The notes beneath the pieces are model-generated. The model saw nothing but the letters and a program-made list of their open reading frames with translations. It did no database searches and had not been told where the DNA came from. A DNA stretch of 64,000 nucleotides from Catenuloplanes indicus. GTDB taxonomy: Bacteria; Actinomycetota; Actinomycetes; Mycobacteriales; Micromonosporaceae. The translations under genes were made by a program, and so were the position numbers. Below, one piece after another: positions 10,102-64,000 of the stretch. Location: assembly GCF_030813715.1 (NCBI RefSeq), contig NZ_JAUSUZ010000001.1, positions 7,440,001 through 7,504,000 on the forward strand, written 5' to 3'. Numbering within the stretch: position 1 is the first letter of the stretch; every line of letters starts with the position of its first letter.

Positions 10102-13100
10102 ATGGCGAATGCCGGGGATTTCCGTCTGATCTGCGCGGACGGCCGTTTCATCGCGGTGCCCGGCGGCGTCTTCTTCCACGACGGGCCGATGGCCGAGCCG
10201 GTCGATCCGGCCGCGCTGACCGGCGCGCTGCGGGCGCCCCGGGCCGGTGGCACGGTCACGGTCTTCGTGCCGGAGCGCGCCCGGACCAGGATCGGCGCGA
10301 CCGACCGGGTCCGCCGCGCGCTGGCCGACCTGCCCGCGCCGGTCCGGGAGCGGCTGGTGCTCGGCACGCTGCCCGGCGACACCGCGGACCCGGCGGTCTG
10401 GCTCGGCCTGACCGACGATTTCGGCCTGGCCACGCACGCGGCGTACCGGCCGGGTCTGACGCCCTCGCCGCGCGTCGTCCCGCTGGACGCCGCCGGCCTG
10501 GAGAGCAAGGACAATCCCGCGGCGGTACGGGTGCTGGCCCGCGACCAGGCCGCCGCGCGGGAGACGCTGCGCGCGGTCCTGGACGGTGCGCCGCCGTCCT
10601 GGGAGAGCCTGGAGCGGCTGGCCGTCCGGTCCGCCGAGATCCGCCGCGAGCTGGACGTGACGCCGGAGCACCGGGGCTCGTCCGGCGCCGGGTACGCGTA
10701 CGCCGCCGGTGTCGCGCTCTTCGGTGTGCCGGACGGCACCGACCCGGCCGTGCTGCGGCGCCGGGTGCGGCCGATCCGGGCGGACGAGGGGTTCCGCGCC
10801 TGGGGCACGCCCGCGGCCCCGGCCGACGCCGACGCTCTGGTGGCGTCGCTGGCCGCCACGCCGGGCTCGGCCCTGCTGGTCGCGGCGCCCGGCCGTCCCG
10901 GCCCGATCTGGCTGGTGTCCCGGCCGGCCGGGCTGTTCACCGTGGACCTGGCCGCGGACGGTGACGCGGCGATCACGGCCGTGACGCCGGAGGGCGCGAC
11001 GTCGCTGCTCGGCACGGCCTCGCTCGCGACCCGGGTCGGCCCCGCCGCGGCCCACGCCCCCGGCCCGGCCCGGCCGTTCGACGCGGAAGCCCCGGCCCAG
11101 CCGGGGCCGGCGCGGCTGGGTGGCCCGGACACCCCGGTCGACTTCTCCGCCGCCGGCATGCGCGCGCTGACCGGCCGGATCGTGACCCGGCTCGGTTCCG
11201 GCAGCGGCGACGTGTACTGCGCCGCCGCCATCGGCGTGGCCCGCGACGAGCTGTTCGGCCGGCTCGGCGTCGCACTGACCCCGCCGGACGGTCGCGCCCA
11301 CGACGACCTCGGCCTGCACGACGGCCTGTGGGCCGGCTGGGGCGTGCCCGGCACCTGGCCGCGCGCGTCCGGCTGGGCGGAGATCGGCCGGATCGTCGGC
11401 GCGGAGCCCGGCCGGGTCGCGTTCGTCCTGTCCGGACGGCCGGGCGCGATCGGCCACGCGTTCCTGGTGGTCAACACGGCCGACGGTGTGCTCTGGGTGG
11501 ATCCGTCCGCGACCCGCGACGCGGACCGGGTCCGCACGCACGCGGAGATGACCGCACCCGGCCCCGGCGGGCTCCCGAAGGCCGCCGCCGCGACCGACCT
11601 GCGCACCCGGATCTTTCGCCGGGACGGCACCGCGGTCACCGTCCCGGCCGCGCCGCCGGAGTCCGCGGGACCGGACGCGACCGCGCTGGCCATGGTGGAC
11701 CGCGCCGAGCGGCGCTACCGCGGCTCCGGCGTCGAGGACGAGGAGTCGGTGATGCTCTTCTTCCCACCGGGCGTCGAGCCGCAGCGTGTCCGGAGCCAGG
11801 TGCTGGCGTGGGGGCCCGATCACACGTACCGGATCGAGGTGGAGACCAAGGCGTTCTACCGGGGCGGGGACGGCCTGCTGTACGCCTCGCCGGTGGACGC
11901 GCGGGCGGCCGGTGGCGACGGCCGGGGGACGCTCGTGGGCATCATCGAGCGGGTCAGCGCGATCCTGCGGTCGCACCCGCACGAGGTGAACGGCTCGGAC
12001 CCGGGACCGGTGTTCGAGGCGTTCGGGAAGATGGCGGCGAGGACCGCGACGCTGACCGGCCCGGACGGCGCCGGCCCGGTCATGCCGCTCACCGAGTTCC
12101 TGGCCGGACTCGATCTCGGCCTCGAGTTCACCGACCTGGGCCTGCGCACCGCCGTCGGGCGCCCACCGGTCCGCGACGAGCCCGGCTCGCACTACCACTA
12201 CACGCACGGCGTCGTGCTCTCCGGCATGCGCGGCTTCCTCGAGCACGTCCGCGACAACACCTGGCGTGACCTGGACCGGGGTTACCTGACCCGGGAGCAC
12301 CTGACCGACGGTCTGCGGTTCGGCGACGAGCTGGCCGAGCGGTTCCTGGCGAGCAACCCGGAGTCGACCGAGACCGCGAACCTGATCGCCGGGTACGCGG
12401 CGCTGTTCTACGACAGCTTCGCCGGGGCCGCCACCTGGCCGATCGACGCCGGCCTGAACAAGGTCGAGATCGCGGTGCTGTCCCGGGTCGACGCGTTCGC
12501 CGACCTGCTGGACCGGATGCCGCTGGACGCGGTCGAGTTCTTCGGCGAGAACTGGGAGGACATCTGGGACGAGCTGGAGTTCAGCATCGGCACCCGGATC
12601 CCGGACTACGCCACGCGCTATCGGGCCAAGAACAACGACGAGCCGTTCTTCTTCCGGGACGACTTCCGGCACGCGCTCACCCACGGGCGGCTGCACACGC
12701 TCCAGGAGTACGCGAAGAGCGCGTTCGTGGCGGACGCCGAGCGGGTCACGCAGTGGGAGGCGATCGGCTTCACCACCGCGGCCCCGCTGGACATGGCCGG
12801 CGGCGCGCTGCTGATCGACCACATTCCGGTCGAGGTGCGCTCGTACGTCGCCCGCCGGGTCACCGCCCGCCGGGCCGAGCAGCTGAACGCGGAACTCGCC
12901 CGGCGTGCCTCGGCCGCGTACGACGCGGCGCTGGACATCGGCCCGGCGAAGCGCGCCGCCGGTGCCCGGGCCTGGCTGAGCCCGGTCGCGGAGACCGACC
13001 TGCGCTGGGTCAGCCGCCAGGAGCACCCGTCCGACGGGGTCCGCCTCCTCGGGTCGGCCGCGGCCGCGCAGGGACGCCAGCTGGTGGTGCTGGACGGCAC

Positions 13101-16100
13101 CGGTGAGGAGGCCGCGGGCGTGCTGGGCTTCGTGCTCGAGGACGCGCCGGAGCTGGCCGGCAGCGCGCTGTTCTGGGTACCGGTGCTCGACCGGCCGCTC
13201 AACGACGTCCGCCAGGCGCACCGGCTGAACATGATCTATCCGGTGCTCACCCGGGTGCCGGGGACGCTGGGCGCGGCGGCTCCGGTGGCCGCGCGCCACT
13301 GGCGGGTGGTGACGTTCGACAACCGGGTGATCGAGCTGGGCGAGGGCGACCTCACCCCGGACCGCCTCGAGGCCGCGCTCGGCCGGATGGACGCGGCCGC
13401 CCGCGCGGTGCCGCAGCCGGAGCGGGTGCCCCCGCCGGCGCTGACCGCCGCGGAGCTGACCACGCTGTTCCGGGACGTGGTCGCGTCCGGCCGGCGCCTG
13501 GCCCGGCACCGCGGCGACCGTACCGTGGCGGAATGTCTGGCCCTGGTCAAGGGCCTGGTCGGCCGGCTGCACCGGGGCGGCGTCCGGGTGCCGCGAACCC
13601 GGGAGGAACCGCTGCCGGGCACGTGGCTCGGCGACCGGCGGGACTGGGAGCGGTTCGGCGGCTGGGCGGCGCTGGACACCGACCCGCGGCTGGTCCCGGG
13701 CGCGACGGCCGTGGTGCTGACCGAGCGGACCGGCGCCGCGCACGGGCACGTCTACGCCGCCTACCGCACCGCGGACCAGGGCATCCGGTGGGTGAACCTG
13801 ACCGAGCGCGACGCGAGGCCGCGGGCCGGCGGGCCGGGGGAGACCCCGGCCGCGTTCGACGCGGACACGTACACCCGGATGATCGTGATCGGCCCGGACG
13901 GGGTGGTGGTCCCGGCCCGGGAACGGCCGGAGCCGGAGTCGCGGTCGCGGACCGCGCCGCTGCTGGACCCGCCGGTGAGCCGGGGGTACCGCGGTTCCGT
14001 CGTCGAGGACGAAGAGACCGTGATGCTCTTCCTCGACGACGGGCAGGACGCGAGCGTGCTGCGCGGCGGTCTGCTGGCGTACGGCACGCACGGCGGCTTC
14101 CGGATCGAGGTGGACACCAAGGCGGTCTACCGGGGCGCGGACGGCCGGTACTTCATCGACCGGGACGCCGCGATCGCAGCCGGTGGCGACGGGAAAGAGG
14201 TCACCGTCGCGATGATCGAGCGGGTCAGCGGGATCATGCGCTCGCACCCGCACGAGTTCCAGCGCGACGACCCGGACGACGTCTTCGACGCGTTCGCGCG
14301 GATGGCGGCGCAGACGCGGAACCTGCCCGGCCCGGACGGCGCCGGCCCGGTCATGTCGCTGCCCGACTTCCTCGCCCGGTCCGGCGTGGACGTCACGCTC
14401 ACCTCGATCGGCGCGCGCGTCTCGGTCGGCCGCCCGCCGGTCGGCGAGGCGCCCGGTTCGCACTACCACTTCACGCACGGCGTCGTGCTCTCCGGCATGC
14501 GGGACTTCCTCGAGCACGTCCGCGACCACACCTGGCGGGACCGGGACCGCGGCTACCTGACCCGGGACCACCTGACCGACGGCCTGGCGTTCGGCGACCG
14601 GCTCGCCGCGGACTTCCTCGCCACCGGCGACGGGCCGGACGCGGCCGCGACCGCGAAACTGATCGCCGGGTACGCGGCCCTGTTCTACGAAAACTTCGCC
14701 GGCGTCGCCACCTGGCCGGTCAGCCCGGAGCACCTGAACAAGGTGCACATCGCGGTGCTGTCCCGGGTGGACGCGTTCGCCGACCTGCTCGCCCGGCTGC
14801 CGGCCGACGCCGTCGACTTCCTCGGCGCGCGGTGGGCGACCATCTGGCAGCGGCTGGAGGAGAGCGTCCGGGCGCGCATCCCCGACTACGACGAGCGTCT
14901 GCGCGAGACAGGGCGCGCTCCGGAGTGGACGATCGGACGCTTCGACCTGGTACCGACGCACCGCGGTGCCACGCTCCGGCAGTACGCGGAGAGCGCGTTC
15001 GTGCTCGGCGCCGAGCGGGTCACCCAGTCCCAGGCGATCGACGTCACCACCGAGGCGCCGCTGGACCTGGCCGACGGCGCGCTGCTGGTCGCGCACGTGC
15101 CGGTCGAGGTGCTCTCGTACGGCGCGCGCCGGCTGACCGCACGCGAGGCCAGGGGCTGGAACCGGCGGCTGGCCCGCCGGGCGAACCGGGCGTACGAGGC
15201 GGAACTGGCGCTTGCCCCGGCCGTGCGCTCCGAACGCGGCCTGGGCTGGCTGGGCCGGCCACCGGAGCCCGGCGTCCGCTGGATCAGCGCGGTACCGGAC
15301 ACCCCGGACTGGGCCGGCGAACTCGGCCGGACCGCGGCCGCGATGGGCCACCCGCTGGTGGTGCTGGACGTCGAGGACGGCACCGGCGCGGCCGCCGAGC
15401 GCCTGTCCGCGCTGCTCACCGCGGAACCCGAGCTGATCCGCACCGCGCTGTTCGTGGCACCGTCCTGGGACGGCGGGCTCAACGACCTGCGCCGCGCGCA
15501 CGGGCTCAACATCGCGTACCCGATCGAGGTGTCGCGGCCGGGGACCGGGACCACCGACGCGTACTGGCGGCTGGTGACGTTCGACAACCAGGTCACCTAC
15601 CTGGGCACCGGTACGTTCACCTCCGGCACCGTGCTGAACGCGATGCTCGCGGTGAACAACGCGGCCTACGGTGCCCTGGCGACGTCCACCCAGCCCGAGG
15701 TGTGGCGGGCCGAGGTGGCCTACACGGCCCCGCCGGTGCCACCGCCGCTGCGGGAACCCGAGAACCCGGTCGCGGAGCTGCGCAAGCACGTCGACGCGGC
15801 CACCGAGCGGGTCACCGCGGTGCTGGACCGGTTCCCGCACTCGGTCGCGGCCGAACTGGTCCGCGCCGCGCTGGAGCGGCTGGCGGCCGCGGAGCTGCGG
15901 ACGCCCGGCGACGACGACGTGACGGAGCTGCTACACCTGCTGGACCAGGCCGCGGCCGAGGTGCTCCGGCTCGACCCGGGCGCCGAACCGGTGCTGCGGC
16001 CGCTGTGGTCCGGACGGTCGATCCCGGCCCGCCCGCTGCCGGCGCCGCGCAGCATCGGCCCGTGGACGGCCGGTGACCTCGGCGCGCTGACCGCCGGCCT

Positions 16101-17139
16101 GCGGCGCCCGGTGCTGACCGTGGACCTGACCGGCCGCACACCGGACGCGCTCGGCGACCTGGAACGCGCGCTGCGCGACCACGAGTGGTGGGGCGAGGTG
16201 CCGATCGTCATGGTCACGCTCGGCACCCGGGCCACCGACGACGCGTTCGCCGCGCTTCGCGAACGCTTCCGGCCGATCGTGGTGCGGGCCGCGGTGATCA
16301 GCGACGTCACGGACGTCCGGATGGTCTGGCGACTGTCCGGACCGGACGGTACCCAGGTGGCGCAGCAGGCCCGGCTGACCGCGGAGCTGGTCGCGACCGC
16401 GGCCCGGTTGCCCGCCGGACCGCGCGCCGCCGCACTGCCACCGGTCCTCGCCGGCCTGCTCACGGCCGGGCCGGACGCGGCCGGACACCACCGGCGGCAC
16501 GCGCGGGAACTCACCGACCCGGGCGTACGGGACGCGCTCGACCGGCTGATCACCACCGCGCCGGACGGGGAGCGCCTCGCCGGTTTCCGGGTCGCGCTCG
16601 GCCTGGACGCCACCGCCACGCACCGGCTCATCCCGGGCGTGCGCAGCCTGCTCGACGTCGAGCCGCCGTACACCGGCGGCCCGGTACCGGCGTCGTTCGC
16701 GTACGACGTGCTGGCGCTGGCCGGTGCCGGCCGCCGCGAGCGCTACGCCATGGACGGCCTGCTCTTCCAGATCGTGCTGGCCGGCCGGATGACGCCGGAC
16801 GCGGCGCTGACGCTGCTGCGGGCCGCCGCGCGGACCGCGGTCGACCGGGCCGTGATCGACGTGTTCGAGGCGGTGACCGAGGCGATGGCGCTGACCGACG
16901 AGCGGGCGGCCGGGGACCCGGCCGGCGACCCGGCGCTACGGGCCATCCTCACCAAGGTCCGGAAGGTGTCCAGCACCGCCCGCGCGCCGGGCGCACCGCC
17001 GCCGGACTGCCTGGACCCGGTGGACCGCACCGCGTTCGTCGGCCGCCTGGACGCGCTGCGCGACCTGTTGCGCGGCACCGGCCGGCCGGCCCGCGCCGCC
17101 CTGATCGAGACCCTGACCCACACCCTCTCCAACTGCTGA
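10102..17139 (+). CDS. G2: giant protein (2345 aa) with two papain-like domains and an internal duplication
   Basis: Start is ATG 10102, preceded by GAGGAG at 10090-10095 with 6-nt spacing. An in-frame ATG at 10027 lies inside the promoter, and the homologous G7 starts at the matching point. The N-terminal domain (about 1-120; LICADGRF, VPGG, LVLGTLPGD) is shared with G7 and, more weakly, G5 and G6. A papain-like domain follows: VYCAAAIG (C373), GHAFLVV (H452), LWVDPS (D467). Next is module A (about 538-1104), then a second papain-like domain: AECLALV (C1145), HGHVYAAY (H1216), WVNL (N1232). Module B (about 1295-1860) repeats A, with FRIEVDTK, RSHPHE, GSHYHFTHG and LNKVHIAVLSRVD. The terminal module (about 1975-2345) ends LSNC-stop. 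I see only five cysteines: C11, the two papain-like nucleophiles, one in DCLDPVDR and the last residue. No signal peptide or membrane segment is seen. Function unknown; the domains resemble toxin deamidase or peptidase folds. Confidence 0.93.
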   Translation: MANAGDFRLICADGRFIAVPGGVFFHDGPMAEPVDPAALTGALRAPRAGGTVTVFVPERARTRIGATDRVRRALADLPAPVRERLVLGTLPGDTADPAVWLGLTDDFGLATHAAYRPGLTPSPRVVPLDAAGLESKDNPAAVRVLARDQAAARETLRAVLDGAPPSWESLERLAVRSAEIRRELDVTPEHRGSSGAGYAYAAGVALFGVPDGTDPAVLRRRVRPIRADEGFRAWGTPAAPADADALVASLAATPGSALLVAAPGRPGPIWLVSRPAGLFTVDLAADGDAAITAVTPEGATSLLGTASLATRVGPAAAHAPGPARPFDAEAPAQPGPARLGGPDTPVDFSAAGMRALTGRIVTRLGSGSGDVYCAAAIGVARDELFGRLGVALTPPDGRAHDDLGLHDGLWAGWGVPGTWPRASGWAEIGRIVGAEPGRVAFVLSGRPGAIGHAFLVVNTADGVLWVDPSATRDADRVRTHAEMTAPGPGGLPKAAAATDLRTRIFRRDGTAVTVPAAPPESAGPDATALAMVDRAERRYRGSGVEDEESVMLFFPPGVEPQRVRSQVLAWGPDHTYRIEVETKAFYRGGDGLLYASPVDARAAGGDGRGTLVGIIERVSAILRSHPHEVNGSDPGPVFEAFGKMAARTATLTGPDGAGPVMPLTEFLAGLDLGLEFTDLGLRTAVGRPPVRDEPGSHYHYTHGVVLSGMRGFLEHVRDNTWRDLDRGYLTREHLTDGLRFGDELAERFLASNPESTETANLIAGYAALFYDSFAGAATWPIDAGLNKVEIAVLSRVDAFADLLDRMPLDAVEFFGENWEDIWDELEFSIGTRIPDYATRYRAKNNDEPFFFRDDFRHALTHGRLHTLQEYAKSAFVADAERVTQWEAIGFTTAAPLDMAGGALLIDHIPVEVRSYVARRVTARRAEQLNAELARRASAAYDAALDIGPAKRAAGARAWLSPVAETDLRWVSRQEHPSDGVRLLGSAAAAQGRQLVVLDGTGEEAAGVLGFVLEDAPELAGSALFWVPVLDRPLNDVRQAHRLNMIYPVLTRVPGTLGAAAPVAARHWRVVTFDNRVIELGEGDLTPDRLEAALGRMDAAARAVPQPERVPPPALTAAELTTLFRDVVASGRRLARHRGDRTVAECLALVKGLVGRLHRGGVRVPRTREEPLPGTWLGDRRDWERFGGWAALDTDPRLVPGATAVVLTERTGAAHGHVYAAYRTADQGIRWVNLTERDARPRAGGPGETPAAFDADTYTRMIVIGPDGVVVPARERPEPESRSRTAPLLDPPVSRGYRGSVVEDEETVMLFLDDGQDASVLRGGLLAYGTHGGFRIEVDTKAVYRGADGRYFIDRDAAIAAGGDGKEVTVAMIERVSGIMRSHPHEFQRDDPDDVFDAFARMAAQTRNLPGPDGAGPVMSLPDFLARSGVDVTLTSIGARVSVGRPPVGEAPGSHYHFTHGVVLSGMRDFLEHVRDHTWRDRDRGYLTRDHLTDGLAFGDRLAADFLATGDGPDAAATAKLIAGYAALFYENFAGVATWPVSPEHLNKVHIAVLSRVDAFADLLARLPADAVDFLGARWATIWQRLEESVRARIPDYDERLRETGRAPEWTIGRFDLVPTHRGATLRQYAESAFVLGAERVTQSQAIDVTTEAPLDLADGALLVAHVPVEVLSYGARRLTAREARGWNRRLARRANRAYEAELALAPAVRSERGLGWLGRPPEPGVRWISAVPDTPDWAGELGRTAAAMGHPLVVLDVEDGTGAAAERLSALLTAEPELIRTALFVAPSWDGGLNDLRRAHGLNIAYPIEVSRPGTGTTDAYWRLVTFDNQVTYLGTGTFTSGTVLNAMLAVNNAAYGALATSTQPEVWRAEVAYTAPPVPPPLREPENPVAELRKHVDAATERVTAVLDRFPHSVAAELVRAALERLAAAELRTPGDDDVTELLHLLDQAAAEVLRLDPGAEPVLRPLWSGRSIPARPLPAPRSIGPWTAGDLGALTAGLRRPVLTVDLTGRTPDALGDLERALRDHEWWGEVPIVMVTLGTRATDDAFAALRERFRPIVVRAAVISDVTDVRMVWRLSGPDGTQVAQQARLTAELVATAARLPAGPRAAALPPVLAGLLTAGPDAAGHHRRHARELTDPGVRDALDRLITTAPDGERLAGFRVALGLDATATHRLIPGVRSLLDVEPPYTGGPVPASFAYDVLALAGAGRRERYAMDGLLFQIVLAGRMTPDAALTLLRAAARTAVDRAVIDVFEAVTEAMALTDERAAGDPAGDPALRAILTKVRKVSSTARAPGAPPPDCLDPVDRTAFVGRLDALRDLLRGTGRPARAALIETLTHTLSNC

Positions 17140-17153: not shown

Positions 17154-19184
17154 GTGACCCTTCCGCTGACCCAGCGCGTCATGGACGCGATCTGCCTCGA
17201 CCACATCATCCCGACCGGCTCCGGCCTGCACCTGCGCCGGGACGGGATGGCCGCGCTGACCGACGACCCGCTGATGCTGGCCGCGTTCGACGTGATCGCG
17301 CCGGACGGCAACACGTACATCACGCTCGGCAAGGGCATGACGGAGGCGTTCGACGACCTCGCGCCGGACAGCGCCCGGGTCGGCGACGACGGCGTGCGCG
17401 CGCCCGGCGGCGCCGGCACGCACGCCCAGCGGGTCGCCCGCGGCCTGCTCTACCAGTTCCTGAACGGGCACCCGGACTACGCGCTGGACCGGATGGTAGA
17501 ACGCCCGCTCGGCGACCACGACCTGAACCTGACGGCTGCGGCGGCCCGAGCGGACGTGGCCGGGCTGCCGGTGGACATCCTCGCGACCGCGGACCTGAGC
17601 GGCGTGGACCGGAACCGGCTGATCGGCTTCTCCCGGGACCTGCGGATCGTGCCGATCGACCAGGCCCAGATCATCCGGGTCGTGCCGCTGCGGCACTGGG
17701 CCCCGGACCCGTACGCGGGCCAGGGCAAGGAGCTGCTGGACAGCGTGCTCTCCACGCCGTACCCGTCGGCCCGGATCACCTTCGACGGCCAGGGCGGCGT
17801 GCGGCTCGGCCTGCCCCCGGCGCTCGTCGCGCACGCCTACGGCGAGGTGCTGCGCCGCACCGGCACGCCGCTGGACGCCCGCGACTTCCCGAAGACCTCC
17901 CAGCTGATCCAGGGGTACGGCGACCTGCTCGCCGCGATCGCGGACAGCCCGGTGGGCGCGCACACGATGATCCAGGTCGGCGACCAGGTCACGCTGGCAC
18001 TGCACGACGCGCACGGCATGTCGTTCGTGGACCCGGCCACCGGGCAGGAAACGGTCTTCGCCGCCGACCCGGCCGACCCGATCCGGATCGCACCGCTCGG
18101 CGGCGAGATGGACCTGGAGACCCGGCTGCTCGACCTGGCGGCGGGCCGGCCCGGCGGGGACGGCCCACGGCTGCCGGTGCGGGTCTCCGGCGCCGCGGAC
18201 GTGTACCGCGACTTCGGCGGCTCCCGGACGCTGGACGTGATCGGCGGCGTGCCGTCCCGGTTCATGGACCGGATCGCCGAGGCCGCTTCCCGGCTCGACC
18301 AGTCCGTCGTGGTGATCGGCTCGGAACGGCTCTCCGACGCGCCGACCCCGGCCGAGCTGGCCGCGCTCGACTGGCAGCTGTTCCAGCACACCAACAACCG
18401 TGGCGTACCCGTGGTGATCACCCGTGGCACGGTCAGCGACGGGCTGCGCCGGATCGTCGAGCACTACCGGGTGCCGCTGCTGCACCAGACCGCCGGCACC
18501 GGCACCGGGTTCAGCCTGGACAACCTGTGGGCCGGCGTCGGCGGCGCGACCACGGTGCCGCCGGCCAAGGAGATCACCGCCGACCTGCTGGCCGCCTACG
18601 CCGGTCGCCGTCGCGTGTCCACGCTGGACAAGGCGCCGGCCGCGCTGTCGTCGTTCCTGACCACACCGCTGGAGAACGCGGATGCCATCCGCGCGGCGCT
18701 GGCCGAGCACGGGTCCGCGCTGCGCGACCTGCGGCCCGAGATCACGAAGTTCGGAGCGACCGCGGGCGTGTTCGCCGCGCACGCCGCGTTCCTGAACGTG
18801 CTCGACCGAGACCCGGTCTTCGCCGACACGCTGCTCACCTACCGGGCCGGCGGCGACGACCGGGCCGACGGCCTGTTCGCCGCGGTCCCGGCCGTGGCAA
18901 CCCAGGAGCCGGCGGTCCGGGACGCCGCGTTCGCCGAGATCGACGCGATCACGCTCGGCACGCTCGACGACGGCGCCAGCCGCGCCATCCTCAAGGCGCT
19001 GCACCTGCACCTGCAGGGCGCGCCCGAGGGCACGGTCCGGGACATGATCTACAGCCACAGCACGTACCTGCCGCGGGACGGTCGCACCCAGTGGATCCGC
19101 CGCCTCCAGGACCTGCAGAGGCAGATGCCCCAGCACGCCGACGGCCTCAACCAGGTCGCGCTGTTCGTCACCACGTGTCCATAG
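17154..19184 (+). CDS. G3: 676-aa family protein with only two cysteines, ending TTCP
   Basis: GTG 17154 is chosen because GGGAG (17143-17147) lies 6 nt upstream, the gene starts 14 bp after the G2 stop, and the N-terminus matches G4 (MDAICLDH versus MDAICLEH). The frame is open further upstream inside G2, but only as a shadow. No known enzyme domain is recognised. Visible elements are an N-terminal region with PLRHWAPDPYA and PSARITFDGQGGVRLGLPPALV (both echoed in G4), a Rossmann-like strand (SVVVIGSE, PVVITRGT), and a helical C-terminal region with ITLGTLDDGASRAILKAL and YLPRDGRTQW. The protein ends VTTCP-stop. By eye the only cysteines are C14 and C675. Almost certainly co-transcribed with G2. 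Paralogue of G4 and of the remnant around the transposon. Confidence 0.9.
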   Translation: MTLPLTQRVMDAICLDHIIPTGSGLHLRRDGMAALTDDPLMLAAFDVIAPDGNTYITLGKGMTEAFDDLAPDSARVGDDGVRAPGGAGTHAQRVARGLLYQFLNGHPDYALDRMVERPLGDHDLNLTAAAARADVAGLPVDILATADLSGVDRNRLIGFSRDLRIVPIDQAQIIRVVPLRHWAPDPYAGQGKELLDSVLSTPYPSARITFDGQGGVRLGLPPALVAHAYGEVLRRTGTPLDARDFPKTSQLIQGYGDLLAAIADSPVGAHTMIQVGDQVTLALHDAHGMSFVDPATGQETVFAADPADPIRIAPLGGEMDLETRLLDLAAGRPGGDGPRLPVRVSGAADVYRDFGGSRTLDVIGGVPSRFMDRIAEAASRLDQSVVVIGSERLSDAPTPAELAALDWQLFQHTNNRGVPVVITRGTVSDGLRRIVEHYRVPLLHQTAGTGTGFSLDNLWAGVGGATTVPPAKEITADLLAAYAGRRRVSTLDKAPAALSSFLTTPLENADAIRAALAEHGSALRDLRPEITKFGATAGVFAAHAAFLNVLDRDPVFADTLLTYRAGGDDRADGLFAAVPAVATQEPAVRDAAFAEIDAITLGTLDDGASRAILKALHLHLQGAPEGTVRDMIYSHSTYLPRDGRTQWIRRLQDLQRQMPQHADGLNQVALFVTTCP

Positions 19185-19409: not shown

Positions 19410-21512
19410 GTGAACCTGCCGATATCGCCGCGCACCATGGACGCGATCTGCCTCGAGCACGTCCTGCCGACCACGGGCGGCACATACCTCTTCAACGCGC
19501 CGTCGTCGAGCCTGGCCGGCGACGAGAAGCTTAGGGACATGAAAGACATTCCGGTCATCCGCGGGTACGGGAGCCTGACCTTCGGGATCGGCCTGGGTGA
19601 TCCGATCCTGAGCAGCCCGGTGACTGTGATGGGCGACGACGGTGTCCCGCGGCCGGCCCGGGAGCTGAGCCCGCAGGAGGCCCAGGCACTCGACCTGGCC
19701 CGTCAATATCTTCGAAGCCTCCCGCCCGAGGCGCTGGACATCCTGAGCAACCGGCCCGCCGACTCGCAAATGACCCTGGATCAACTCGCCGAGTACGCCG
19801 ACAAGCTGCACTTCCAGGCGGAGACCGCGCTCCGGCGACTGATCGACGCGGCCCTCACGATCAATCCGAACCGGCTCCTGTATCTCGACGGCGACGGCCG
19901 GCCCGTCATTCGCGAGCGCGCGGCGGTCGTCAAGGTGGCACCGATCGAGCATCGTGCCCCGAACCCGTTCGCTGACGTCGACCCGTCGCTTCGGGAGCTG
20001 GCACTGTCGCGTGCGGGCGGATATCCCAGCGCCCGGATCGTCTTCGACGCCGGCGGCCGGGTGCAGCTCGGCATGCCACCGGCACTGGTCCGGCACCTGG
20101 AGAGCCGGACCAGCGAGCCGGCGCCGTCCCCCCGTGTCCCGGACGGCATCACCGGCCCGGAGCGGTTCGGCATGTACAACGACCTGATGGCCCGGATCGC
20201 GGAACACCACCAGGAGGTCAGGATCGAGGTGCGGGCGCGCGGCGGGCAGCACGTCGAGACGTTCAAGGCCGTGCACGACGAGCACGGGATCCGGTTCACC
20301 GATCCGCGCACCGGCGAACCCGCGCTGTTCCCGGCCGAGACGGAGATGATCCAGGCCACCGCGTGGGACCCGGCGGATCTCGCCGCCGTCGACACCGGCA
20401 CCGCCGTGACCCCGCTGCCGATCGTGCGGCCCAAGGGCTTGACGGTGCACCGCACGTACGGTCCGGACGACCGCCTCTCGGTCGACGTGCTGGGCGCGCG
20501 GGACTCCGTACCGGCGAACTTCCTGGACCAGGTCGCCGGTCTCGGTGCCGACGCCGGCCGGTCGGTGGTGGTGGTCGGCCACCCGGCTGGAAAGGCGGAG
20601 GCCGCGCGCGATCTGGCCCGGGCGCAGTCGCTGCTGTTCCAGCGGGCCTGGAACCTTCAGCACGGCCGGGACACCGAGCCGATGCCGATGGTCATCGACT
20701 ACGGCGGCGTCGGCCCGGAGCTGAGCGGCCCGGCCGCGGCGCTGGGCGCGCCGGTGCTGCGCCGCGAGCTGGGCACCGGTCTCGACATCGGGGTCTCGTG
20801 GCGGATCGTCGGCGCGGACGGCGTCGTGGCCGGAACGGCGCAGAAGGGCGTCCCGCAGGACACCTCCGTCTGGTCCGGCACACCGGTCCGGGCGAACCCG
20901 GCGCTCGACATCGACCGGACGATGGCGTCGTACCTGTCGATGAGCATGGACGACGTGCCGGCGCTGGTCGCCGCGCTCACCGTGGACGGCAGCACGCTCA
21001 AGAGTCTCCGCCCGGCCGTCGACGCCCTGCCGGTGGACCCGCGGGTGTTCGCCCCGCAGATGAAGCTGCTCGACCTGCTCGACACGGCGGACGGCCGATT
21101 CGAGGCCGGCATCGACTACCTGAGGCGGGTCGAGGGCGGCACGGTCCAGGCACTGCCGGACATCACGAAGGTCCTGCACCTCGGCACGGACGCGCTCGAC
21201 GACCTCGCCGCCCTCACCCTGGGCACGATGGACGACGGCGCGTCCCGGAGCATCCTCGCGGCGATCCGCAAGGGCATCGAGGGCGTCGCGGGCATCACCG
21301 CCGTGTCCACCGGGGACCAGGCGGCGGACGGCGCGGCGCGCGAGCAGGTCTACCGGCAGATGCGTGACGAGATCTTCGCGCACAAGGACTACCTGCCGGG
21401 CAAGGGCAGCCGCACCGATTACGTCCGGGCGCTGCAGGGCTGGGCGCAACAGCTGGAGGAGCACCGCGACGTGCTCAGCCAAGCCGCGCTCTATGTCACC
21501 ACCTGTCCCTGA
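19410..21512 (+). CDS. G4: 700-aa family protein with only two cysteines, ending TTCP
   Basis: Start GTG 19410 with GGAGAG at 19399-19404, 5 nt upstream. Paralogue of G3: the same opening (MNLPISPRTMDAICLEH), IEHRAPNPF versus LRHWAPDPY, SARIVFDAGGRVQLGMPPALV, a Rossmann-like core (SVVVVGHPAG, PMVIDYGG), ALTLGTMDDGASRSIL, DYLPGKGSRTDYV and the ending YVTTCP-stop. The region near 360-520 also parallels the terminal modules of the giant proteins (beta strand, helical stretch, terminal cysteine). C14 and C699 are the only cysteines I find. No catalytic motif, signal peptide or membrane segment is recognised. No ECF-type promoter lies in front, so it is probably read from the G2 promoter. Confidence 0.9.
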   Translation: MNLPISPRTMDAICLEHVLPTTGGTYLFNAPSSSLAGDEKLRDMKDIPVIRGYGSLTFGIGLGDPILSSPVTVMGDDGVPRPARELSPQEAQALDLARQYLRSLPPEALDILSNRPADSQMTLDQLAEYADKLHFQAETALRRLIDAALTINPNRLLYLDGDGRPVIRERAAVVKVAPIEHRAPNPFADVDPSLRELALSRAGGYPSARIVFDAGGRVQLGMPPALVRHLESRTSEPAPSPRVPDGITGPERFGMYNDLMARIAEHHQEVRIEVRARGGQHVETFKAVHDEHGIRFTDPRTGEPALFPAETEMIQATAWDPADLAAVDTGTAVTPLPIVRPKGLTVHRTYGPDDRLSVDVLGARDSVPANFLDQVAGLGADAGRSVVVVGHPAGKAEAARDLARAQSLLFQRAWNLQHGRDTEPMPMVIDYGGVGPELSGPAAALGAPVLRRELGTGLDIGVSWRIVGADGVVAGTAQKGVPQDTSVWSGTPVRANPALDIDRTMASYLSMSMDDVPALVAALTVDGSTLKSLRPAVDALPVDPRVFAPQMKLLDLLDTADGRFEAGIDYLRRVEGGTVQALPDITKVLHLGTDALDDLAALTLGTMDDGASRSILAAIRKGIEGVAGITAVSTGDQAADGAAREQVYRQMRDEIFAHKDYLPGKGSRTDYVRALQGWAQQLEEHRDVLSQAALYVTTCP

Positions 21513-54906: not shown

Positions 54907-54936
54907 GACCATGAGCTGTAGTGGCAGCTCATGGTC
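54907..54936. terminator. Stem-loop after G6
   Basis: GACCATGAGCT (54907-54917) and AGCTCATGGTC (54926-54936) form a perfect 11-bp stem with an 8-nt loop, 13 nt after the G6 stop. No U tract. Confidence 0.6.
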
Positions 54937-55076
54937 ATCGTGCCCGACCTCCAGGGCACGGCCCGGGACATGATCTACAGCCACCGCACGTACCTGCCGC
55001 GGGACGGCCGCACCCAGTGGATCCGCCGCCTCCGGGACGTGCAGAAGCAGATGCCCCAGCACGCCGACGGCCTCAA
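54931..55076 (+). pseudogene. G3/G4-like gene remnant, left half (split by transposon)
   Basis: From ATG 54931 the frame reads DLQGTARDMIYSHRTYLPRD, then GRTQWIRRL, QMPQHADGLN. This is nearly identical to codons of the G3 3' end (19005-19155) at protein and DNA level. The match stops at GCCTCAA (55070-55076), where the transposon begins; the frame then hits a stop at 55081. The remaining 3' codons (LNQVALYVTTCP-stop) lie 4.4 kb away at 59494-59534. The 5' part of the gene is missing, so this was already a fragment or was deleted later. Confidence 0.85.
55070..55076. repeat. 7-bp target-site duplication, left copy (GCCTCAA)
   Basis: GCCTCAA at 55070-55076 is repeated at 59494-59500. Joining the two flanks through one copy restores the G3-like reading frame (ADGLN + QVALYVTTCP), which shows that it is a target duplication. 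Confidence 0.85.
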
Positions 55077-55428
55077 TGATTAGACCCGCGAGAAACGACA
55101 CCAGAGGTTCGTGAGTTTTGACTCCCCTGACCGGCTCGGCCGGAGATCAATCTCCGCGAGTTTTGACCGCACTCTGGTCCTCTGCCGTGGGCTGTTCAGG
55201 GTCGTTGGCGGTTTGCAGGCGGAGCCGGGTGAGCGCGAGCATGTCGATCAGCCAGCCCGGGCCGCCGCTGATGTGGCGGGCGCGGAGGACGGTGTCGAGT
55301 TCGCGGTGAACGGCTGGGTCGGCGTGGGCGAAGAAGTCTTCGCAGATGCCGAGGATCGTCGGTAGCAGGTCGTCGTCGAGTTCGCCCGGATCCATCGGGT
55401 TCTCCGCAGCAGCGCAGGCGGCGGGTGG

Positions 55429-57454: not shown

Positions 57455-57713
57455 CGGCCGGCCTCCGTCTCGGGTCAGCCGATGCTCCCACCACCATCCG
57501 TGGTGTTGAAACTCGCGGACATCGAATCCACCCGATCAAGCGTCCACCAACCGTGGTGTCAAAACCGACGGATAAACGCCATGCCAGAGCAGTTCCGACT
57601 CAGAAACGGTCAGCTCTGGCAGCGGTCCCGTTCGGTCGGGAGTTGGTCCCGGTGTCTGCTCGGGCCCTGGCCGCGGGTGGTTGCAGTGCATGGACTCGCG
57701 GCAGTCTGAGATG
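57455..57713. other. Gap between istA and the passenger genes: inner right-end repeats
   Basis: No gene is seen here. The sequence holds inverted CGAGTTT(T/C)(A/G)AC-type repeats at 57505-57516 and 57558-57566, matching those at the outer right end, and an 8-bp inverted repeat GCCAGAGC/GCTCTGGC (57583-57590, 57613-57620). It looks like an ancestral IS right end, now internal. Confidence 0.55.
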
Positions 57714-57748
57714 TGCCCGGCCGGCTTCTGGCGTCAGCCGGCCGGGCA
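57714..57748. terminator. Strong stem-loop terminator of the oxidoreductase gene
   Basis: TGCCCGGCCGGCT (57714-57726) and AGCCGGCCGGGCA (57736-57748) form a perfect 13-bp stem with a 9-nt loop, 4 nt beyond the stop codon of the minus-strand oxidoreductase. Confidence 0.8.
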
Positions 57749-57752
57749 TGGC

Positions 57753-58676: not shown

Positions 58677-58727
58677 CTTCTGCCACCTCCGGTGCGACCG
58701 GCCCGGTCGTTCCGGGCGCCGCAGCCA

Positions 58728-58758
58728 TCCTCACCGCTCACACTGATGTGAAGGGCAA
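58728..58758 (-). promoter_or_regulatory. Candidate MerR-type operator/promoter of the oxidoreductase
   Basis: On the minus strand TTGCCC (58758-58753) is followed by a 19-nt spacer and TGAGGA (58733-58728). The spacer holds the dyad TCACA-N4-TGTGA (58738-58751). A dyad in an over-long 19-nt spacer is the hallmark of MerR-activated promoters. The -10 match is weak. Confidence 0.45.
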
Positions 58759-58782
58759 CCGGCTGAGGTGCGGGTCACAGCG

Positions 58783-59178
58783 TCAGGCCGACGCCGTCAC
58801 CGGGACCGAGGCCGTCGGCGGCTCCACCCAATGCTCGCGGTTGATCTTGATCAGCACGTCGAGTGCGTCACGGGTTTCGACCAGGTGGGCGATATCCGCG
58901 TTGATCCGATCGCGCTCGCGCGTCATCGCCACAAACGCCGACTGGATGCCGGCAGGGTCACTCGGGGTGTCCACACACGGCAGCACAGACGCGATCACCC
59001 GGCTGGACATACCCGCGGCGAACAGTTGCTGGATCAGCAACACCCGCTGGACCTCGGCATCGGAATAGTGACGCTGCCCAGCATCGGAGCGTGCACTGGT
59101 CAGCAGGCCCTGCTCCTCGTAGTACCGCAACGAGCGTGGACTCACGCCCGTACGCTTGGACAGCTCGCCGATCCGCAT
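58783..59178 (-). CDS. MerR family transcriptional regulator (131 aa)
   Basis: N-terminal winged-HTH of the MerR family: MRIGELSKRTGVSPRSLRYY, EEQGLL, GQRHYSDAEVQRVLLIQQLF; then a coiled dimerisation helix (TRERDRINADIAHLVETRDAL). Length is typical of the short MerR regulators that sit next to oxidoreductase genes. There is one Cys (PCVDTP, about residue 68) and no metal-binding Cys cluster. The start is chosen from the conserved MRIGEL. GAAGG touches the ATG directly, so initiation may be leaderless. Likely activates the downstream reductase gene, 106 bp away on the same strand, through the dyad at 58738-58751. The inducer is unknown. Confidence 0.93.
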   Translation of the reverse strand: MRIGELSKRTGVSPRSLRYYEEQGLLTSARSDAGQRHYSDAEVQRVLLIQQLFAAGMSSRVIASVLPCVDTPSDPAGIQSAFVAMTRERDRINADIAHLVETRDALDVLIKINREHWVEPPTASVPVTASA

Positions 59179-59493
59179 TCCTTCAAGCCTACGCCCGCGT
59201 GCTCCAGCGCTCAGGCCACCGGCAGATCACAGATGCAGGGGTGGGACCCAACCCCACGCACATCAACCACGGCGAAACGCTCAATCCCGGGTCGAGAAAC
59301 GCCCATCCGGGTACTATCGCCACGTTTCCACCCGGTGATCGTAACGGGACACGAGCTTGCCACGCGGCACCAAGACGAGTCGTACCGAGCTCACAAAGCT
59401 GTGGTGTCGAAACTCGTGAACATGAAATCCAGCATCGATCTTGCGGTGTCAAAAGTGGTGTTCATCCGGTGTCCGGATGCGCGGAGACAATCA
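59179..59493. other. Right end region of the transposon, no gene
   Basis: Noncoding as far as I can see. It contains the upstream region of merR, the inverted terminal repeats at 59406-59418 and 59448-59457, and the outer inverted repeat ending at 59493. Confidence 0.6.
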
Positions 59494-59534
59494 GCCTCAA
59501 CCAGGTCGCGCTGTACGTCACCACCTGTCCCTGA
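59494..59534 (+). pseudogene. G3/G4-like gene remnant, right half (LNQVALYVTTCP-stop)
   Basis: Begins with the second target duplication GCCTCAA (59494-59500) and supplies the codons missing from the left half at 54931-55076. The ending VTTCP-stop is that of G3 and G4. Followed directly by a terminator. Confidence 0.85.
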
Positions 59535-59544
59535 TCGGAAGCCG

Positions 59545-59695: not shown

Positions 59696-62600
59696 GTGGC
59701 GAGTGCCGGGGACTTTCATCTGATCTGCGCGGACGGCCGTTTCATCGCGGTACCGGGCGGCGTCTTCTACCACGACGGGCCGATGACCGACCCGATCGAC
59801 CCGATCGCCCTGACCGGCGCGTTCCGGGCCTCCCGCGCCTCCGGCGCCACCATGGTCTACATCCAGGAGCGGACCCGGCTCAAGCCGGGTGCGCTGGAAC
59901 GGCTGCGCCGCGCGCTCGCCGACCTGCCCGCGCCGATCCGTGACCGCCTCGTCCTCGGCACCCTCCCCGGCGAGAGCATCGACCAGGCGAACTGGCGAGA
60001 GCTCGCGGAGGTGTTCGGCCTCGCCAAGCACGCGCCGTACCAGCCCGGCATGGAACGCTCCGCCCGTGTCGTACCGCTGGATGAATCGGGTCTGGAAAAC
60101 CCGGCCGACCCCTCGGCGGTACGCGTGCTGTCCCGCGCTCAGGCCGCCGCCCGGGAGACGCTGCACGCCGCGTTGACCGGCGCGCCCCCGTCCTGGGACC
60201 GGCTCGTCGCGCTGGCCGGCCGCGCGTCCGCCATCCGCGACGACCTGCTGGTCCCCTCGAGGCTGAGCGGCGACGAGCAAGACAGCCCGCTGAGCGCCAC
60301 GTACGCGCTCGCGGCCGGCATCACGCTGTTCGGACTCCCGGCCGACATCGACGGGGCCACGCTGAAGCGGTCCGTGCAGCCGGTCAGCGCCGACGAGGTG
60401 CTGCGCGCCTGGGGCGGATCCGCGATCCCCACCGACCCGGCCGACATCGTCGCCACGCTGCTCGCCACGCCGGGCTCCGGCGCCCTGATCCGGACGGACA
60501 TCACCGGCAGGGGCCCGGTCCTCGGCTGGCTGGTCTCCCGGCCGGAGGGCCTGGCCTGGATCAACCCGGCACTGGACGGCGGCGCCGCCATCCGCCTGAT
60601 GCCCGCGCAGGACGCGGTGTCCCTGCTGCGCACTCTGCCCGGCACCGACCTGAAATCGCTCCTGGTCGGCCCGGACCGACCGGTGGATCTGGCCCGGACG
60701 AATTCGTTCGACTCGGTGACGTCGACGGACTCGTCCGACTCGATGCGGTCCACGGGCACCGACCTCACCACACCGGACGACACGCGTCCGTCCGGTACCG
60801 CACCCGGCCGCGACGCGCGGCTGGGTGGTCTTGGCCTCGTCACCCTGGCGCTGGAGTACGCCGACATACCATTCACCGCGGAACCCGTGGCCCGGCCGAA
60901 TCTGACCGATGCGGACCAGCGCGCCGCCGCGCTGGACCGGGTGAAGCGGTGGACGATGGGAGTGGAGATCCCGGCGTCCGTGGCCGATCCGGCCGTTCTC
61001 CCACCGGAGGACTGCGTGGAGCGTGCCTGGGGTGCGTTCGTGGCGCTGCATCGACGGACCGGCAATGTCGCGGCCGACGCCGAGCTGCTGGAGACGAAGT
61101 CGGCGGAGGCACTGGCGGCCCGGCTCGGTGGCAGGCTGTCCCTGGCATGGGATCCGGACGGGCTGGAGCAGCTCCTGCTCGACCGGCCGGGCACCATGGT
61201 GCTGGTACGCACGCCCCCGCGCCCGGGCGGGATGTCGCATGTGTTCTGGCTGGCGTCCACCGGCTCCGGCGGCCTGATCCCGCTCGACAGTCAGCGCGTG
61301 AGAAGCTCCGAGCAGATCGACGGCAGGACGCCACCGGCCGTCCTCGCCCGCTATCTCGCCGAGCTCCGGCACGTCGGCACCGACGTGCTGCTGCTGGACG
61401 AGCGGGGTCAGACGGAGGCTCTGCGCGGAACGCCGTCCTCGGCCGCGGCGCTGGTCGACGCACCCGTCGGCCGCCGGAGTGCGGGCATGGCGCCCGGCTA
61501 CGCGCCGCCGCCTCCGCCTCCGCCTCTCTCCCTGGCCCAGCAGGCTCGCAACCTGGACGCGTCGTACGCCCAGTATGCGGCGATGCCGGGATATGCACAG
61601 AATCCTCAGGCGCTGCAAAACCTCTACGACACGTGGTATGTGCCGTCCAACAATGCCATCAAGTCGAATCTGCTTCGGCGGGTGGCAGTGTCGGTGCAGA
61701 CACCATGGGGGCCGGCCTGGGTCGTGGCCAGGGGTCTCAGCGGTAGAACCGAGGACGAGAACCTGCTGCGAAGTCGCTACTACCCACAGACCAATGTGAA
61801 CGAGGACGCCGGAACCGACAACTGCTTCTACTGCTCCATCGCAGTGGAAGCCCACCAGAGCGGTGAGGGCGGATTGAGGACGCTCACCCATGCGAGCGCG
61901 GTGCAGTCTCGCATCGGCCTCGAGTACCGGTTCCGGGAATCATTCAAGCGGTACCGGGACATGAGTGGCCGTCCCATCGCCGGGTCGCTGGGGGTAATCG
62001 CCGACGTCAACGCGCAGGGCGCCGGCTTCCGTGGTCTGATCGCGCAGTACCCGACGCCGTCACCCGATCCCGAGGTGGTGAATGTCGGACACGTATTCAA
62101 CGTCATAAATGATTCGGGATACGTCGTCTTCCTCGATGGACAAGCGGAGCACTTCGGTCAGCTGGCCGATATGCTGCCCAACGGCAACATTGCGATGACG
62201 GCGCTGCTGACCACTGAACCTGGGGTTCGGGCGGGCATTACCGTCGGCGGAAGATCCGCCGCGGAGGACGCCCCGTACGGCGAGGAAAGTGCGCCTGCGG
62301 CGTCGCATGACCGGTTCGTCAACGTGCTGTCGTCCATTCCTCTGCCCGGCGTCGTCTCATCGTTGCCGTCGTCGGTGGGGGATGTTCGGGCTGCGGTTGG
62401 TGCCGCTCGGTCTCGATGGGATGAGATGTACGACCGGGTGGTGTCCGCGATCGACGTGCTGGAGCAATCACCGCATATCTCGACGGCACGGCGGGCGTCG
62501 GCTGCTGCGGTGCGTGAGGTGCTCGACCGGCTGCGCTCGGCGATCGGTGATCTAGCGGAGCGAGTCTTCGGTCTGCCGGACGATGAGGCGCGGGTGCAGG

Positions 62601-64000
62601 CCGGGATGCTCGCGGAGCGGTACGAGCTGGCGAACCAGACGCTGGTGCCGCTGCTGAGCGACCTCCCGGCCACCGCGCTGCTGGCGCCGGTGTCCGAGAT
62701 GGTGCGGGACGGCCGGGTGCTGGCGCCCGCCTCCGAGATGTTCCGGGCGCCCGGCGGTGCGCTGGCGGACGGCCCGGTCGTCGCTCTCCCCGCGGACAAC
62801 GACCTCACCGTTCTCATGCAGGACAGGGCCGGCCCCCCGTGGGCGGTGTCGACCGCATCGGCGCTTCCGCCGTACACGGTGGGGGTGGCGCCGGACGGTT
62901 CCTATGTCGTGGCCAGGGCGCCGGCGCCCGGAGAGAACAAGCCGTACGGATTCTCCGGTTTCGAGGTGTTCGGCCCGGACGGGCTCCCACGCGGGACGAT
63001 CGAGGCATCGATCGACGCGACCGAGCCCGGCCCGACGACCGACGGCTTCGTCGCCACGGACTTCCTGGTCAACCTGTCCGACGTCGCGGATGCTCTGGAC
63101 CTGACCACCTTCTATGCCACCGGGGTGAGCGCCGGCGAGTTCTTCTACTCACTGCGCGTCGGCAACGAGAAGGTCTGGGACATCCGTGAGAACGAATACC
63201 GAATGGAGGTTCTGTCCGGCCCGAACGCCAATCCGCGTGACTATCGGCAGGAACGGACGGTCAGCCACGAGAAGGCCCGCGAGCGGCTGGTGGAGCGCGG
63301 CTGGACGCTTCCCGCCGAGGGGTTCTCCGGAAGTCAGGTGCTGCGCCCGGCGTGGACCAGCGTCGATCCCGGTTGGGCGCCGGTGGTCGTCACGGCGGAC
63401 GGCATCGAGTCGCTGTCCGTGATCATGGAGACGCTGGACGGCGGGTCGGTCCGGCTGGTCTCCGGCCGCTACCTCGACGACGGTGGATTCGCCGTGGTGA
63501 ACCCGGACACCGGTGCCGTCGTCGGGCGGCTGCGGTCCTGGGCCGGGGAGGACCGGGTGCCCCGGTGGTCCGGCGAGGCGCTCTCGCCGTCGGCCGCCCG
63601 GTGGTTCGGCGAGGAGGACCTGACGGCGGACGAATTCGTCCGGGCCGTCGTGCTGGGCGGCACGCGCGTACGGGACGATCTGGCCATCCCCGGCTTCGGC
63701 CTGTACCGGCTGGAGATGGACGACGCGGTCTTCCTGGTCCGGGCGATGGTCGACGCGGATGGCGGCGTGGTGCGAGCGCGCCGGCCGCTGGCACTCGATG
63801 AGGCGATGTACGGCGGCCTCGGTGCGGACGGATCCGATCCGATCGCCGGGCTGCGCGGGGCCGGGTGGACGGTGTCGACCGGTCACCGAAATCGCGTCGA
63901 CGCGCACACCCGGACGCTGACGATCGACCCCTACAGCGGGTTCGCCCGGGACGCGGTGACCACGGCGCAGGCGCATCAGGCGCGTGCGAACGACCTGCAG
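59696..64000 (+). CDS. G7: giant mosaic protein with Tox-PL (papain-fold deamidase-like) domain, 3' partial
   Basis: GTG 59696 with GAGGAGA at 59684-59690; the frame stays open for 1435 codons to the window edge. Opening VASAGDFHLICADGRF matches G2 (C11). After the family N-terminal domain and a segment parallel to G2 comes a papain-like domain (DCVERAW C440, SHVFWLAS H515, IPLDSQ D531), then a proline run (PPPPPPP). Next is a clear Tox-PL-like domain: NCFYCSIA (C710, C713), GHVFNVIND (H799), VVFLDGQ (D814, Q816). Papain-fold toxin-1 domains of this type are known to deamidate glutamine in target proteins. A helical part follows, then the VGVAPDGSYVVA/SDVADALDL/VERGWTL/PAWTSVDPGW module also found twice in G1. 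The continuation presumably leads to a terminal Cys module. No signal peptide is seen. Confidence 0.93.
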   Translation, partial: MASAGDFHLICADGRFIAVPGGVFYHDGPMTDPIDPIALTGAFRASRASGATMVYIQERTRLKPGALERLRRALADLPAPIRDRLVLGTLPGESIDQANWRELAEVFGLAKHAPYQPGMERSARVVPLDESGLENPADPSAVRVLSRAQAAARETLHAALTGAPPSWDRLVALAGRASAIRDDLLVPSRLSGDEQDSPLSATYALAAGITLFGLPADIDGATLKRSVQPVSADEVLRAWGGSAIPTDPADIVATLLATPGSGALIRTDITGRGPVLGWLVSRPEGLAWINPALDGGAAIRLMPAQDAVSLLRTLPGTDLKSLLVGPDRPVDLARTNSFDSVTSTDSSDSMRSTGTDLTTPDDTRPSGTAPGRDARLGGLGLVTLALEYADIPFTAEPVARPNLTDADQRAAALDRVKRWTMGVEIPASVADPAVLPPEDCVERAWGAFVALHRRTGNVAADAELLETKSAEALAARLGGRLSLAWDPDGLEQLLLDRPGTMVLVRTPPRPGGMSHVFWLASTGSGGLIPLDSQRVRSSEQIDGRTPPAVLARYLAELRHVGTDVLLLDERGQTEALRGTPSSAAALVDAPVGRRSAGMAPGYAPPPPPPPLSLAQQARNLDASYAQYAAMPGYAQNPQALQNLYDTWYVPSNNAIKSNLLRRVAVSVQTPWGPAWVVARGLSGRTEDENLLRSRYYPQTNVNEDAGTDNCFYCSIAVEAHQSGEGGLRTLTHASAVQSRIGLEYRFRESFKRYRDMSGRPIAGSLGVIADVNAQGAGFRGLIAQYPTPSPDPEVVNVGHVFNVINDSGYVVFLDGQAEHFGQLADMLPNGNIAMTALLTTEPGVRAGITVGGRSAAEDAPYGEESAPAASHDRFVNVLSSIPLPGVVSSLPSSVGDVRAAVGAARSRWDEMYDRVVSAIDVLEQSPHISTARRASAAAVREVLDRLRSAIGDLAERVFGLPDDEARVQAGMLAERYELANQTLVPLLSDLPATALLAPVSEMVRDGRVLAPASEMFRAPGGALADGPVVALPADNDLTVLMQDRAGPPWAVSTASALPPYTVGVAPDGSYVVARAPAPGENKPYGFSGFEVFGPDGLPRGTIEASIDATEPGPTTDGFVATDFLVNLSDVADALDLTTFYATGVSAGEFFYSLRVGNEKVWDIRENEYRMEVLSGPNANPRDYRQERTVSHEKARERLVERGWTLPAEGFSGSQVLRPAWTSVDPGWAPVVVTADGIESLSVIMETLDGGSVRLVSGRYLDDGGFAVVNPDTGAVVGRLRSWAGEDRVPRWSGEALSPSAARWFGEEDLTADEFVRAVVLGGTRVRDDLAIPGFGLYRLEMDDAVFLVRAMVDADGGVVRARRPLALDEAMYGGLGADGSDPIAGLRGAGWTVSTGHRNRVDAHTRTLTIDPYSGFARDAVTTAQAHQARANDLQ

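Follow-up and report, generated by a model that had tools for sequence, protein, structure and literature searches.

The 64,000-nucleotide stretch of Catenuloplanes indicus DNA analysed here (the window; positions 7440001-7504000 of contig C1 in the 9.25-Mb genome G000) carries genes for giant proteins and small companions that keep cysteine (Cys) near both ends of the chain and almost nowhere else. The family combines a conserved N-terminal domain containing one Cys with a conserved C-terminal domain containing a Cys near the end; in between, Cys is excluded apart from papain-like and a few isolated residues, the genes occur in pairs, and ESX (type VII secretion) genes are close by. The reading we favour, with confidence a little short of even, is that these would be giant effector-like proteins linked to a type VII secretion system (T7SS) in Catenuloplanes and some other genomes of its taxonomic family, with end thiols that would form disulfides after export.

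Conservation of the end cysteines

The Cys codons were checked directly in the DNA, which confirmed what an earlier note had read from this stretch: Cys11 in G2, G5, G6 and G7 and Cys14 in G3 and G4, an end in ...NC-stop for G1, G2, G5 and G6 and in ...TCP-stop for G3, G4 and a split remnant (59490-59534), exactly two Cys each in G3 and G4, and six among the 6256 residues of G5. The family genes of the window are the following, the long ones being termed NC-type giants (NC giants) and the short ones small companions.

1..9997, plus strand: G1, NC-type giant, with its N-terminus upstream of the window at genome position 7433968 (Cys in LICADG); inside the window it is read in two frames that overlap (1-6558, 6509-9997); C-terminal Cys codons at 9866-9868 (CVDPVDR) and 9992-9994 (last residue)
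10102..17139, plus strand: G2, NC-type giant, 2345 aa; Cys 11, 373, 1145, 2303 (CLDPVDR) and 2345 (last)
17154..19184, plus strand: G3, small companion, 676 aa; Cys14 and Cys675 only (...TTCP)
19410..21512, plus strand: G4, small companion, 700 aa; Cys14 and Cys699 only (...TTCP)
21583..40353, plus strand: G5, NC-type giant, 6256 aa; Cys 11, 161, 1168, 2974, 6212 (CLDPYDR) and 6256 (last)
41175..54893, plus strand: G6, NC-type giant, 4572 aa; Cys 11, 313, 3189, 4528 (CLDPSDR) and 4572 (last), with 313 and 3189 in a DCVDR context read as papain-like
59696..64000, continuing to genome position 7508992, plus strand: G7, NC-type giant, 3098 aa; Cys 11, 440, 710, 713, 3056 (CVDPIDR) and 3098 (last), with 440, 710 and 713 in contexts read as papain-like

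With no more than 8 candidates scored per genome, a profile of the C-terminal domain of the NC giants matched 15 of 354 genomes of the taxonomic family at 42 or more places; 34 of the 42 lie in genomes other than the own. It further matched 6 of 397 genomes in an order sample that overlaps the family set, including one genome of another family, and in a class sample of 394 genomes only the own genome. With the stop codon as landmark, all 39 NC-type C-termini in open frame (13 own, 26 of the 34 elsewhere) had the Cys of a CxxxxDR motif as well as a Cys at one of the two final positions, the chance of the latter being about 1.4% per protein (2 x 0.72%). The end Cys was retained in the most distant relatives, which share 19-30% identity with G6. 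The Cys of the CxDPxDR motif, 42-46 residues from the end, was conserved as well as the last one. The end cysteines described in the earlier note are real, but the NC giants conserve three non-catalytic Cys, the one in CxDPxDR, which that note had pointed out for G5, being equally invariant. The claim of selection on the end thiols is supported; homologues without an end Cys, which would have spoken against it, were sought and seen only in one broken copy of the own genome.

For the N-terminal domain, 51 sequences were assembled from 32 of the 34 non-own places, 12 own giants and seven companions. A Cys-blind profile trained without close relatives placed 45 of the 51 N-termini, all 45 on Cys; the input windows had been cut around Cys, which favours this outcome. 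In the six rows left unplaced (L113, L115, L118, L119, L121, L123) a Cys was found by reading near the likely start, and the N-terminal Cys is also present in the own giant outside this set. The same blind test applied to the CxDPxDR Cys returned C in 31 of 42 rows, a gap in five and A, T or L in six, the latter being read as one-column shifts. For the last Cys the test failed, as local alignments stop before the end (no aligned residue in 37 of 42 rows, C in five). In the own genome, 12 of 13 matches to the N-terminal domain lay at gene starts of NC giants, and the thirteenth in the broken copy, beside fragments of the C-terminal domain.

The six small companions of the own genome (673-715 aa) and that of C. 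japonicus (671 aa) contain exactly two Cys each. Cys14 is combined with a penultimate Cys in six of these seven; the 715-aa companion at genome position 7332541, with Cys 14 and 715, ends in Cys-stop. The C-terminal domains of companions and NC giants are homologous, their last Cys being aligned (profile-profile probability 90.1, E 1.6e-6), and the companion alignment takes in the C-terminal end of a 7102-aa protein described below. The companion profile matched 11 of 354 genomes, all within the 15 NC-positive ones, the match in G290 being the NC locus itself. The last Cys was kept in 29 of 29 companion-type loci (30 were considered; L135 is the G290 NC locus, already counted) at 1-12 residues from the stop, with ends such as TC, TCP, TCMP, QCPD, DCPDL and longer tails. 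This implies that the identity of the last Cys matters and its terminal position does not. Among 41 places found with the profile, 31 were compared with giants, leaving aside the G290 locus and nine ends of long frames, of which six belong to WXG-type giants; 21 immediately followed an NC giant, the 3' ends being 2.0-2.2 kb apart in 20 cases and 0.4 kb apart in one, and 10 did not. The C. japonicus locus L036 shows the giant-companion pair as found in the own genome.

Cysteine depletion and control giants

In 23 family proteins totalling 62,081 aa, 86 Cys were counted against 448 expected at the Cys rate of neighbouring genes (0.72%), a count in which the N-terminus of a 9.6-kaa giant lies outside the stretch, at least one counted Cys is upstream of the likely start and the total is one residue high. 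The other amino acids of these proteins were close to background. The set comprised 12 of the 13 own NC giants, six own companions and the one of C. japonicus, the 7102-aa protein and three stand-alone relatives; G1, being split, was not included. Of the Cys outside the conserved end positions, most stood in contexts read as papain-like (DCVDR, ECLAL, NC), and a few were isolated.

Depletion was stronger in relatives. A 12,978-aa frame (genome G248) has Cys only at 15, 12926, 12927 and 12978 (94 expected), an 11,805-aa frame (G274) only at 17, 11752 and 11804 (85 expected), and a 6,861-aa frame (G167) only at 15, 6809, 6810 and 6861 (50 expected). Three other NC frames, in G098, G198 and G231, contain 10, 7 and 9 Cys against 58, 47 and 48 expected, the extra ones being partly papain-like, partly upstream of the likely start and partly isolated. 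Homologues with more Cys, which the earlier note had named as a case against the pattern, therefore exist, at up to 10 in an 8056-aa frame where 58 are expected, many of these being papain-like by reading.

Control giants were found via the papain-fold domain Gln_amidase (PF15644; 42 of 394 genomes). Those taken were the four longest frames from genomes other than the own, plus a further frame of 4,292 aa; a 4,416-aa frame in G459 is not part of the set. The observed over expected Cys in these five frames of 4,292-20,955 aa were 8/31, 24/151, 6/67, 6/61 and 7/106. All five N-termini were WXG-like by reading; none had a Cys in the first 30 frame residues, and none of four had one in the last 30, the fifth frame running off its contig. 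Because the control giants are poor in Cys yet lack end Cys, Cys poverty and end-capping are separate facts: the former is common to such giants and the latter, as far as sampled, is particular to this family. The longest control, G459:C82 (L178-L181), is a 20,955-aa open frame with papain-fold domains, a WXG-like N-terminus by reading and 24 Cys.

The controls bear on the strongest of the competing explanations, that the two end cysteines would be unrelated structural sites, each serving the fold of its own domain, with Cys poverty a separate trait of exported giants. This is rather unlikely in our judgement, and still the first of the alternatives to be considered. It agrees with the five controls, with a 3223-aa frame beside the ESX genes that matches RHS repeats and has zero Cys, and with the finding that the last Cys need not sit at the very end. 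It fits less well with the co-occurrence of N- and C-terminal domains while everything between them varies (12 of 13 in the own genome, plus the broken copy), and with retention of the last Cys where its predicted hairpin partner, the CxDPxDR Cys, is absent. Elsewhere, the co-occurrence is no independent test, because the N-termini were reached only through matches to the C-terminal domain.

ESX surroundings and related systems

In the own genome the family surrounds an ESX locus, with ESX genes inside the cluster at genome 7375-7424 kb. EccC of this cluster matched a solved FtsK/SpoIIIE-type ATPase with E 2e-267 and also EccC5 of ESX-5; WXG100, YukD/EccD and a subtilase were found with it, together with an AAA protein carrying AAA_lid_6 and a beta-helix, which we label EccA-like. 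Beside the ESX genes lies the 7102-aa protein (start assumed at a GTG codon), which has two Cys, 105 and 7100, and shares the family C-terminal domain. The Cys-free 3223-aa open frame with the RHS repeat match (G000:C1:7376443-7386114) also adjoins them.

YukD was searched in the 15 NC-positive genomes, with distances taken to the C-terminal end of an NC giant. Of the 10 genomes with a chromosome-sized contig, 9 had it within 50 kb, against 1.2 expected from random rotation of the YukD set; the drafts G096, G231 and G004 had it on the giant's contig, also within 50 kb.

The papain-fold domain Gln_amidase exceeded its cut-off of 24.1 bits in G2 (27.4) and G7 (28.8); the cut-off was not reached by G6, by the in-window part of G1 or by G5 (15.9 bits). 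The own genome has seven PF15644 matches over the cut-off, of which G1 contributes three from its part upstream of the window and a 972-aa frame that is not a family member contributes one. The closest known kind is the giant multi-toxin protein of the polymorphic-toxin literature, described from actinobacteria by Zhang et al. 2012 (PMC3482391); such proteins reach more than 10,000 aa and combine several domains of peptidase or toxin-like type. Toxins with the papain-fold domain Tox-PL1 are usually T7SS-linked and are given there with WXG-type N-termini (PMC3482391). Actinobacterial host, size and papain-fold domains are alike in our family (PMC3482391). In contrast to our family, control giants of that general kind have no end Cys, and the family's end domains gave no Pfam match in the proteins scanned; no mention of end cysteines was found in the portions of the article available (PMC3482391).

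A precedent for the disulfide chemistry proposed here is provided by EspA, an ESX-1 substrate whose sole Cys makes an interchain disulfide after secretion, according to the part of the report available (PMC2891827). It is likewise a T7SS substrate; it differs in having a single Cys at position 138 in a 38-kDa monomer and has no known sequence relation to the family (PMC2891827).

In the literature searched, mostly outside subscription journals, neither a description of the Cys-end-capping pattern nor the phrase 'lonely Cys domain' was found. 'Lonely Cys domain-containing protein' is an NCBI name for very long, Cys-poor Streptomyces proteins with one conserved Cys. A search of NCBIfam returned no families for the G1 tail (6509-9997), G2, G4, G6, in-window G7, the C-terminal half of G5 or two pieces of the 7102-aa protein.

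Predicted ends and possible roles of the thiols

By reading, Arg and Asp are abundant in the last 45 residues of the NC giants (DPxDRxxWxxRLDxLRD), which are predicted to form a helical hairpin. An AlphaFold2 model covering the C-terminal 400 residues of G6, calculated from 6 sequences (mean predicted local distance difference test, pLDDT, 78.6; predicted template modelling score 0.66), ends in two near-equal helices, 359-377 and 381-398, separated by a short turn. C356 is located three residues before the first helix and C400 two after the second, so that, judged from secondary structure rather than coordinates, the two would share one end of the hairpin. The G4 model (mean pLDDT 49.8, with blocks of the first 330 residues at 21-48) was unusable for the Cys14-Cys699 contact or the N-terminal half. 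For the end domains, no Pfam match in the proteins scanned and no convincing known fold in searches of the PDB were obtained.

On the favoured reading, family proteins would be export-competent effectors or toxins; lacking a recognisable T7SS signal, they may travel with the 7102-aa protein, which has the common C-terminal domain and, by reading, a WXG-like N-terminus. After export the end thiols would become disulfide-bonded. Within an NC giant, the last Cys could pair with the CxDPxDR Cys and staple the terminal hairpin. The N-terminal Cys, like the end Cys of a companion, would be free to bond N-to-C, within one chain or between chains; internal Cys would have been purged because mispairing would result. 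A pure head-to-tail pair, one of several options listed in the earlier note, is complicated by the third conserved Cys, predicted at the same hairpin end as the last one.

A more far-reaching variant, which we consider unlikely, has giants of about 1,700-13,000 residues joined end to end by disulfides between N- and C-terminal Cys, either as a ring or, extracellularly, as a chain or fibre of giants and companions. Loss of internal Cys along the entire chain would then leave the ends alone able to bond, and the whole would amount to covalent end-capping of giants exported by the T7SS.

Several results weigh against the T7SS-and-disulfide reading. The WXG-like N-terminus of the 7102-aa protein was recognised by reading only and has no Pfam match. 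No WXG or LXG Pfam domain was found in the in-window parts of G1 and G7, in G2, G3 (minus its first 8 residues) and G4-G6, or in pieces of three other own giants, and the NC giants are therefore classed as T7SS-linked and not as established T7SS substrates. YukD lies 64 kb from the giant in G098, the tenth genome with a chromosome-sized contig, and is missing from the giant's contig in G026 and G290. Among the neighbours annotated, which were not all of them, no thiol oxidoreductase was identified nearby. The C356 region of the G6 model is weak, with blocks 341-360 at pLDDT 65-69 and residues 348-352 below 50. Further, a hairpin staple is not the only role of the last Cys, because companions and WXG-type giants keep it without the CxDPxDR Cys; in the companions of the own genome and C. 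japonicus that position is Tyr (YLP), so that their last Cys must serve another role. Finally, the broken copy mentioned above, a fourteenth own NC copy (G000:C1:1632100-1634100, L032; genome 1632.1-1634.1 kb) in which the frames disagree, keeps the Cys of VVCRDG and CLSADDR in different frames and has lost the last one, the sequence running on past the expected site without Cys.

The three conserved Cys of the NC giants, with conserved D and R beside one of them, could also be ligands of a metal or cofactor site formed where ends or partner chains meet. We regard this as improbable, given that in the own genome and C. japonicus each companion contains just two Cys and has the Tyr noted above, and that no invariant or nearly invariant His was present in the C-terminal alignments.

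Slightly more doubtful still is reactive-thiol chemistry, by which the end Cys would serve in thioester or thioether crosslinking, in lipidation or as a processing or sorting tag. The extreme-end position in NC giants and the papain-like domains in many of the same chains would suit it. In relatives the last Cys can be followed by as many as 11 residues, which weakens the idea of a thioester or C-terminal tag raised in the earlier note, and by reading no hydrophobic anchor precedes the last Cys of the NC giants. In addition, the giants of G248, G274 and G167 keep the end Cys with no other Cys that could be a papain-like nucleophile. A C-terminal sorting signal of the sortase, PEP-CTERM or MYXO-CTERM type was rejected by reading, the end being a charged hairpin with no anchor. 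An Asn-Cys C-terminus resembles the intein +1 junction; an intein-like end was likewise rejected by reading, since these chains finish in a charged helical hairpin.

Frames that reach almost 13,000 residues, with Cys only near both ends, constitute a clean natural case of position-specific residue exclusion, and two or three thiols offer a simple handle on the maturation, assembly or delivery of giant T7SS-linked proteins. Neither of the two conserved end domains had a match in our Pfam and PDB searches, and both can be used for finding such systems.

Behind G6, the window contains the remains of a small companion and other genes, labelled by reading only where so marked.

54931..55083, plus strand: small-companion remnant, a C-terminal YLPRDGRTQWIRRL segment, then interrupted
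55841-57255, minus strand: IS21-like transposase fragments (by reading)
57753-58676, minus strand: quinone-oxidoreductase-like gene (by reading)
58783-59178, minus strand: MerR-like gene (by reading)
59490..59534, plus strand: small-companion end, the final 14 codons (...QVALYVTTCP-stop), about 4.4 kb from the remnant at 54931-55083

The segments at 54931-55083 and 59490-59534 are probably parts of one split companion gene; the approximately 4.4 kb between the halves (55083-59490) hold the other genes of this list. A degraded small companion (...IAIYVMTCP) also stands directly behind G7, as behind G6, at genome position 7509021-7509389 (L024). The apparent frameshift in G1 at window 6386-6558 may be due to mutation, sequencing error or programmed frameshifting.

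Residues 3503-3550 of G6, located after its last papain-like domain and before its C-terminal one, gave a weak metallopeptidase-like match to DUF6782 (12.8 bits against a cut-off of 27) with an HETVH motif. Inside G5, at window 38278-38509, a 21-nt repeat occurs 11 times with 95% matches in a stretch of strong GC skew (0.195). G6 contains near-perfect tandem repeats at window 42155-42246 (42-nt unit) and 42445-42552 (24-nt unit), both unit lengths being multiples of three; these repeats suggest recent expansion.

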